Assembly (NCBI RefSeq): GCF_030296575.1
Contig: NZ_AP027729.1
Span: 372,001 to 436,000, forward strand
Origin: Paraoerskovia sediminicola
GTDB lineage: Bacteria; Actinomycetota; Actinomycetes; Actinomycetales; Cellulomonadaceae
Direction: 5' to 3'
Length of the DNA: 64,000 nt
Shown here: positions 26,093-28,176 of the stretch, piece by piece
Numbering within the stretch: the stretch's first letter is position 1
Layout: each line of letters begins with the position of its first letter
Position numbers and translations under genes: made by a program
Notes under the pieces: model-generated
Told to the model about the DNA's origin: nothing
Databases searched by the model: none
The model's input: the letters and a program-made list of their open reading frames with translations, nothing else

Positions 26093-26098
26093 TAGGTT
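26093..26098 (+). promoter_or_regulatory. -10 hexamer TAGGTT of the DUF222/HNH gene
   Basis: TAGGTT ends 6 nt before ATG 26105, overlapping the LexA-like box by two bases. Confidence 0.5.
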
Positions 26099-26112
26099 GT
26101 ACATATGTTCGA
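26097..26112 (+). promoter_or_regulatory. LexA (SOS) box overlapping the start codon
   Basis: The 16-mer matches the palindrome TCGAAC-n4-GTTCGA at 14 of 16 positions when the centre is ATAT; the right half GTTCGA is perfect. It covers the end of the -10 hexamer and the first codons ATG-TTC-GA. SOS boxes are known upstream of DUF222/13E12-type genes in mycobacteria. Confidence 0.65.
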
Positions 26113-28176
26113 ACGAGCCCCGGTCAGCCTCTCTCAGGTTGCTGCCTCCCCGCGGCGCCAGAGATGCGCGAGCGTTCGCACGCGTCCGTATCGACGGCCC
26201 CTGCGGAGGGCGCAGAGCACGTCGAACTCGCCGGCACACCCGGATCGTCGTCGTCAGCCGTCGAAACGGCGATCGAGACCGAGTTCTCGGCCGCGGTCGA
26301 GCGCTGGCTCGCCGCGGCGGTTCCCGAATCGCCGGGAACGGCAGGCTCGCTGGGCCTGTACCCCGCAAGGACCGAGCGCACGGGTGCGGATACAAGCACG
26401 AGCACAAGCACAGGCGCAGGTCCGGGCACGGGCACGGGCACGGGCACGGGCACGGGCACGGGCACGGGCACGGGCACGGGCACGGGCACGGGCACGGGAG
26501 ACGCTGGAGCTTCTGCCGCAGCCTCAGCCACCGGCCTCGACACCGCCACCGGCTCGTCGACAGGCGCACCCTGGCCCGGCTCCGGCGACGCGCCACCCCA
26601 TCGCGCACCCGATGCCGGCATGTGCGCCACGTTCGCCTCGTTGGACCCGGCGGCGCTCGACGATGCCGAGGTCATCGAGGCGATCGCCGCCTGGGAGCAG
26701 GTTCGCTCCTGGGCCACGGCGCGGCAGGCGATGCTCGTGCGCGAACTCCTCGACCGACGCACCGGGTCGCGCGACATCGAGTTCGTGGACGACGAGATCT
26801 CTGCGCGCCTCCGCACGACGAGAGCCGCCGCCTCACGGACGACCGAGCTGGCCACCGGCCTGGGCCAGCACCCCGTGGTGTGCGCAGCTTTGGTGGCGGG
26901 TCGCATCGACGAGCGCCGGGCTCGGGTGCTCCTCGACGCGGCTCCGAGTGCGCCACTCCCGGAGCGTCAGGCACTCGTCGCCTCGCTCGTCGAGGCCGCG
27001 GAGGAGATGACGGCACCCCGACTCCGCGACGCCGCGCGACGCGCCGAGATCGCACTGGACCCCGACGCCGCCGCGGCCCGACGTCGCGTCGAACGGCGCC
27101 GGCGTTCGGTCTCGGTCGTCCCCTGCCCCGACGCGATGAGCCGGCTCACCGCGTACCTTCCGGCCGAGTACGCGCGCCGCGTCTGGGCCTCGATCGACGA
27201 CGCCGCCCGCGCGCAGGCCGGGGACGACGCCCGATCCATGGACGAGCGCAGAGCCGACGCCCTGGTCGACCTGTGCTCGGGACTCGCTGCATTCGCACCA
27301 CGAGCGGGGGCCGTAGCTTCGGGCACGGGCACTGGCACCGGCACAGGCACAGGCACAGGCACAGGCACAGGCACAGGCACAGGCACAGGCACAGGCACAG
27401 GCACAGGCACAGGCATCGTCGCGCCGGCCGCTGAGGCCACCGCTCGACCCGGCTCGTCGCACAGGCGTGGCGCGAAGCACCTCGTACAGGTCACGGTCGC
27501 GGCGTCCACGCTGCTCGGGCTCGACGAGCACCCCGGCGAGCTCAGCGGGTACGGCCCCGTCCCCGCCGACGCCGCACGAGAGATCGCCGCCGACGCCACC
27601 TGGCGTCGCCTGCTCACGGACCCAGCCACCGGGATCCTGTCCGACGCCGGCACTACCTCGTACCGGCCGTCGGCAGCACTCCGCAGCGCGGTCGAGGCAC
27701 GGGACGCGACGTGCGCCTTCCCCGGTTGCCGCGTCCCCGCCTCGCGCTCGGACCTCGATCACATCGTCCCGTTCGCAGGCCTCGGCACCGGCTCCCCTCC
27801 CGCGTCAGCACCCGACGCACCCCCGGGCACCGGCCTCCCTCCCGCGTCAGCACCCGATCCGGCGGCATACGGCTCGGTGGCATCCGGCACAGTGGCGGCG
27901 GGCGCAACAGGGACGACCTCGGCAGCGATAAGCCAGGCAGGGACGAGCCCGACAGCGACGAGCCCAGGATCGACGAACCCGACCAGGGCCGACAACCTGC
28001 ACGCCCTGTGCCGCCACCACCATCGCCTCAAGACGCACGGCCGGTGGCGGGTCGAACGCGACCCAACCTCGGGCGAGACGACCTGGACGAGCCCAACGGC
28101 CCACACCTACCGACGCGAGCCGCAACGCTTCTCCGCGCCGCAGCTCCCGGACGACCCCGGACCGCCGCCGTACTGA
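26105..28176 (+). CDS. DUF222 / HNH endonuclease-type protein (13E12-like) with Gly-Thr repeat tracts; probable frameshift near 26149
   Basis: About 690 aa if translation starts at the leaderless ATG 26105 (MFERAPVSLSQVAAS) and one C is restored at CCCC 26148-26151. Without that repair the first ATG in frame is 26164. DUF222 spans about 175-400. A C-terminal HNH nuclease domain runs from CAFPGC (about 535) through LDHIVPF to NLHALCRHHHRLKTHGRW (about 640). A 65-residue Ala/Ser/Pro/Gly insert separates its His and Asn-His parts. Two (Gly-Thr) tracts of 12 and 15 units lie at about 107-130 and 405-435. The family is linked to DNA damage and mobile-like repeats in mycobacteria; actual nuclease activity is unproven. 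The SOS box at the start suggests induction by DNA damage. Confidence 0.75.
26424..26495 (+). repeat. Perfect hexanucleotide tract GGGCAC x12
   Basis: Twelve uninterrupted copies, read GGC-ACG, give (Gly-Thr) repeats between the N-terminus and DUF222. Slippage would change length by two residues and keep the frame. Confidence 0.97.
27321..27410 (+). repeat. Hexanucleotide tract NGGCAC x15 (last 11 AGGCAC)
   Basis: Fifteen units: two GGGCAC, one TGGCAC, one CGGCAC, then eleven AGGCAC. Read GGC-ACN, they again give Gly-Thr but use ACA, unlike the ACG of the first tract. It sits between DUF222 and the HNH domain. Confidence 0.97.

Follow-up and report, generated by a model that had tools for sequence, protein, structure and literature searches.

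A probable composite PafBC/LexA DNA-damage promoter at the start of a DUF222/HNH gene in Paraoerskovia sediminicola

The DUF222 gene and its reading frame

The window analysed here (64,000 nucleotides of Paraoerskovia sediminicola contig NZ_AP027729.1) contains, after thiG, a gene of the DUF222 family whose features are listed in Table 1. The encoded protein scores 88.3 bits against PF02720 compared with a curated Pfam cut-off of 24.4, which places it in this family. HNH received no Pfam score in the window protein and is scored in some of its relatives. Within the gene there are also two hexamer arrays that are perfect or nearly so, CGGGCA x12.7 (26423-26498) and GGCACA x15.7 (27322-27415), both of which code for Gly-Thr runs; because the arrays are multiples of six, their length can vary while the frame stays intact.

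Table 1. Coordinates of the features discussed (positions in the window)
Feature	Position	Strand	Basis and remarks
PafBC (RecA-NDp) motif gTGTCGGTG	26076..26084	+	About -29 to -21 if ATG = +1; matches tTGTCRgtg-8nt-TannnT
-10 element TAGGTT	26093..26098	+	N8 from the PafBC motif; 6 nt before ATG
Predicted LexA-type (SOS) box TTGTACATATGTTCGA over -10, +1 and start codon	26097..26112	+	10/12 to consensus; kept in 6/6 group members; binding predicted
Proposed leaderless start ATG in box (Met-Phe-Glu)	26105..26107	+	In frame in five sister copies, one base out here
Interval where a one-base indel would fuse ATG 26105 with the DUF222 frame	26131..26163	+	Weak codon-phase support
DUF222 ORF, main frame, alternative start ATG 26164	26164..28176	+	ORF list; PF02720, 88.3 bits
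DUF222 domain	26686..27705	+	Pfam PF02720
C-terminal HNH-like motif NLHALCRHHHRLKTHG	27994..28041	+	By eye from the translation; holds a repeat insert

A predicted LexA-type box lies at the beginning of this gene and contains an ATG at 26105. The frame problem is real: the DUF222 ORF runs in frame 1 and this ATG belongs to frame 2, one base off. By codon-phase likelihood, a switch of frame at approximately 26131-26163 is weakly preferred, scoring 2.7 log units above the case with no switch; the interval contains 26148-26151, where a previous sequence-only reading of this DNA had proposed a missing C. Alignment with paralogues gave no indel position, their N-termini being too diverged. The same reading had assumed a window-wide pattern of errors, and indel errors are indeed credible: thiO is spread over two frames (23035-24899) and moeZ was recovered from its C-terminal half only (28941-29651), both of which are signs of either indel errors or pseudogenes, and pafB shifts frame in the same assembly, which consists of two contigs with a completeness of 87.6%. 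Considering the split ThiO, the partial MoeZ and the frame change of pafB, assembly indels are likely and a missing base is plausible. A one-base indel likely separates ATG 26105 from the DUF222 frame, and the window copy may also be genuinely broken rather than misassembled.

LexA-type and PafBC-type motifs at the gene start

The coordinates previously given for the -10 element, the palindrome and the ATG all agree with the sequence. The palindrome had been described as a 14/16 match to the SOS consensus; the site is real, but that figure includes four N positions, without which TCGAACNNNNGTTCGA is matched at 10 of 12 informative bases. Both mismatches (C2>T and A4>T) fall in the left half, which matches TCGAAC-N4-GTTCGA at four of six bases; the right half-site is exact. 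The ATG is followed directly by TTC GAA. Other DUF222 genes have perfect boxes at the same position. Sites of 10/12 grade number 488 in the genome and 13 in the window, where shuffling gives a mean of 3.2, and a consensus match alone therefore proves nothing; significance based on the consensus score alone was dropped as an argument for this reason. The genome encodes LexA (TIGR00498, 231 bits versus a cut-off of 111). We also considered that the palindrome might be a target of recombination or of a nuclease, but set this idea aside, since the same type of box is found at lexA, recA and uvrA.

Evidence of a different kind comes from closely related copies of the gene. The 15-mer TGTACATATGTTCGA occurs six times in 221 genomes of the family, always at a DUF222 start (none for the reversed pattern). 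Two of the six belong to the P. sediminicola genome, one of them being the window gene, and the remaining four account for every DUF222 gene of a congener (G003). The upstream DNA of these six copies has diverged apart from TGTCGGTGGC, TAG and the box. In all five other copies, the DUF222 frame begins with ATG-TTC-GA (MFEQGG..., MFEASH...), which supports the earlier suggestion that the box codes for Met-Phe-Glu at the start of the protein. Conservation thus confirms the predicted box as a site far beyond chance, and the reading that a LexA-type box contains the start codon and overlaps the -10 element is supported at the sequence level.

SOS control had been proposed for this gene. A predicted LexA-type box is indeed present, but a PafBC promoter at 26076-26098 had been overlooked. 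Here, TGTCGGTG (26077-26084) is followed by 8 nt, TAGGTT, 6 nt and the ATG, and gTGTCGGTG-N8-TAGGTT agrees exactly with the published PafBC/RecA-NDp consensus, tTGTCRgtg-8nt-TannnT (PMC5656591), save for the weakly conserved first t. The genome has seven exact TGTCRGTG-N8-TANNNT sites, compared with none for the reversed control, and all of them are located at repair genes: recA, uvrA, uvrB, sbcD, a DnaQ-like exonuclease gene and two DUF222 genes (UvrA and SbcD were confirmed by NCBIfam; RecA, UvrB and the exonuclease were named from reading the translations). At several of these genes, the start codon lies 6-7 nt past the -10 element. The spacing between TANNNT and the start codon, N6 in the window gene and N6 or N7 in its relatives, is that of leaderless genes. 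In addition, PafB and PafC are present in the genome as a WYL tandem (matches of 5.6e-26 and 5.7e-42, respectively). PafBC, activated by single-stranded DNA (ssDNA), works on a -26 motif that is contacted by PafB in a solved initiation complex (PMC11804915); if the ATG is taken as +1, the motif here lies at -28 to -21, where this contact is made. Since the promoter is also of the PafBC type, LexA would account for only half of the control.

Distribution of the fused layout

A survey of DUF222 genes for MFE-type starts inside SOS boxes, an idea put forward in the earlier reading, found the layout to recur in many of them. In a family sample of 115 DUF222 genes, 71 have a PafBC-type promoter (0.25 per set in shuffles) and 61 have a box that deviates at one base at most (0.1 per set), counts that are inflated by paralogues. 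The offset from motif to box is locked at +13, +20 or +21 in 40 of 46 pairs. At +20 and +21 the start codon falls within the box, and at +13 the -10 element (TACANT) itself does, the start in this class probably being downstream of the box. A third layout, in which the box is just upstream of the PafBC motif, was found, for example, in L043, L097 and L145 as well as at uvrA of the P. sediminicola genome. TTG codons in TCGTACANTTGTTCGA boxes were initially candidates for embedded starts and were dropped, because the TACANT -10 element inside the box at +13 makes a downstream start likelier. When genes were picked on the right half-site only, 24 of 46 had the left half TCGWAC upstream of the start.

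Beyond the family, searching the genome collection with the complete composite yielded at least 118 stretches, every one under an Actinomycetota title; carriers among the matches listed include Mycobacterium, Mycolicibacterium, Rhodococcus, Williamsia, Nocardioides, Georgenia and Cellulomonas. The N8 spacing was present in 78 of the 81 composite matches examined, 7 and 9 also having been permitted. Among the matches listed, 52 of 71 downstream ORFs of at least 60 aa encode DUF222 proteins and one encodes RuvC; many of the remainder are truncated at the edge of the locus, and some of these have BLAST matches to DUF222 proteins. When the PafBC requirement was removed, TANNNTCGWACNNATGTTCGA, the pattern of a box that includes the ATG, was found in 63 of 297 genomes of the class (0 in the reversed control), with 17 DUF222 ORFs and one UvrD-type helicase among the 23 ORFs examined. 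Of 29 DUF222 loci sampled across the phylum, a box with no more than two mismatches is present in 23, but a PafBC motif in only six and a convincing start in the box in about three; the fused layout is therefore not universal. Taken together, it is on balance probable that many Actinomycetota DUF222/HNH genes are controlled by an AND gate in which PafBC activates and LexA represses one and the same leaderless promoter, whose operator lies in the coding sequence and dictates Met-Phe-(Asp/Glu); in related layouts, the box encloses the -10 element or precedes the PafBC motif.

Several further occurrences were noted. One genome (G181) has at least nine dispersed DUF222 copies with near-identical promoters (L087, L094, L098-L101, L104, L110 and L119), as if gene and switch had spread as one unit. 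In two IMG/VR contigs (L322 and L323), the composite precedes a 100-aa ORF with an MFDDWSDPPG or MFENWSDPPG start that belongs to phrog_37248, a PHROG without known function, and judging from these sequences phages may use the same damage switch. Outside DUF222, the UvrD-type helicase (L325:3-1508, minus strand) has a proposed start in a perfect SOS box (MFDNHSWDD...). In two Coriobacteriia MAGs, the frame of the box ATG either adds 14 residues to RuvC, the composite being located before ruvC (L205), or is a 14-codon ORF (L230), and the box ATG may therefore not be the start of ruvC.

Proposed mechanism, alternatives and known systems

We consider it likely that a leaderless DUF222/HNH gene is driven here from a compact, composite DNA-damage promoter (positions 26076-26112), with PafBC as activator and LexA as repressor. 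What the sequence shows directly are the motifs with their fixed spacing and conservation, and the LexA and PafBC genes of the genome. Binding of LexA and PafBC at the site, the AND logic, the transcription start and leaderless translation are inferred from known biology. In the undamaged cell, LexA would sit on the palindrome, covering the end of the -10 element, +1 and the start codon, and RNA polymerase would therefore be unable to open the promoter. Upon damage, ssDNA would, through RecA, trigger LexA cleavage and free the site; it would also activate PafBC, which would hold the sigma-A polymerase on TGTCGGTG in lieu of a -35 element. Damage would thereby both lift the LexA block and supply PafBC, giving an AND gate. 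Transcription would begin at or beside the ATG, the mRNA would be leaderless, and the ribosome would start at ATG-TTC-GA. Read on from the AT of the start codon, GTTCGA encodes Met-Phe-(Asp/Glu), and the right half-site would thus serve as operator and code at once.

Two features of the locus count against the proposal, the two left-half mismatches (TGTAC), which are common to close relatives, and the position of ATG 26105 outside the DUF222 frame in the assembly, and each is the basis of a different explanation. It is unlikely, though the more credible of the two, that the window copy is translated from ATG 26164 via a short leader, in which case the box would be an ordinary operator and its ATG would be unused. 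This start agrees with the frame of the assembly as given, and a box upstream of the start is indeed found in other DUF222 genes; however, all five sister copies have an in-frame start in the box, no clear ribosome-binding site was seen ahead of ATG 26164, and indels are documented in this assembly. Somewhat less probable is that the promoter responds to PafBC only, the box having decayed in its TGTAC left half so that LexA no longer binds, with ATG-TTC-GA kept by descent or for its N-terminal code. The two mismatches are shared by six of six group members, and the boxes found at lexA, recA and uvrA of the genome all lack the TGTAC left half, both of which would be consistent with such decay. 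On the other hand, TGTACAT before the coding start is invariant in six copies whose other flanks have diverged, and the T at box position 2 doubles as the last T of the -10 element under the N6 geometry, so this mismatch need not represent decay.

That the palindrome match is due to chance appears scarcely credible: although the genome contains 488 sites of equal grade, six of six exact copies of the 15-mer in 221 genomes are located at DUF222 starts, the spacing from motif to box is locked, and the arrangement recurs phylum-wide with zero occurrences in the controls. The composite promoter with LexA and PafBC control thus remains the preferred reading of the locus.

To date, about ten 13E12 HNH genes of Mycobacterium tuberculosis (Mtb) have been assigned to the LexA regulon (PMC4181829), which agrees with the statement in the sequence-only reading that SOS control of 13E12-type genes is known in mycobacteria, and five HNH genes are induced through RecA (PMC8151990). 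These LexA-regulated genes belong to the same kind of protein family and have the same box (TCGAAC-N4-GTTCGA), but neither a start codon in the box nor a locked PafBC motif is described in the two papers. Similarly, the mycobacterial PafBC (RecA-NDp, P1) promoters resemble the present one in their tTGTCRgtg-N8-TAnnnT motif, repair-gene targets and the presence of PafB and PafC in the genome. In M. smegmatis, recA has one promoter for PafBC (P1) and another for LexA (P2) (PMC11804915), whereas here both controls appear to act on one promoter. Genes with both a RecA-NDp motif and an SOS box, and hence with PafBC and LexA control, are known (PMC8223512), but a fixed spacing and an operator over the -10 element, +1 and start codon are not described in that review. 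In Mtb lexA, also an SOS gene, the start codon coincides with the transcription start, but the passages on this start do not place it within an SOS box (PMC2897130). No description of the fused, start-coding layout was found in the literature searched, and earlier notice is possible in Davis 2002, Smollett 2012 and Mueller 2021, which lie outside that literature. LexA regulation of 13E12 genes and regulation by PafBC and LexA together are established, and it is this layout that appears to be new in the literature searched.

Such a layout would provide a poorly understood, highly repeated nuclease-like family with a testable trigger, i.e., DNA damage sensed via both ssDNA pathways together. The signature TGTCRGTG-N8-TANNNT-N6/7-ATGTTCGA may be used to find leaderless damage genes and to correct the annotation of their starts (MFD/MFE starts), and it would represent a case in which a repressor site constrains protein sequence, the operator fixing how the protein begins. 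In addition, the double lock hints that DUF222/HNH proteins may be dangerous; the finding that overexpression of an HNH nuclease, which may or may not belong to DUF222, kills M. smegmatis (PMC9416677) fits a need for such tight control.
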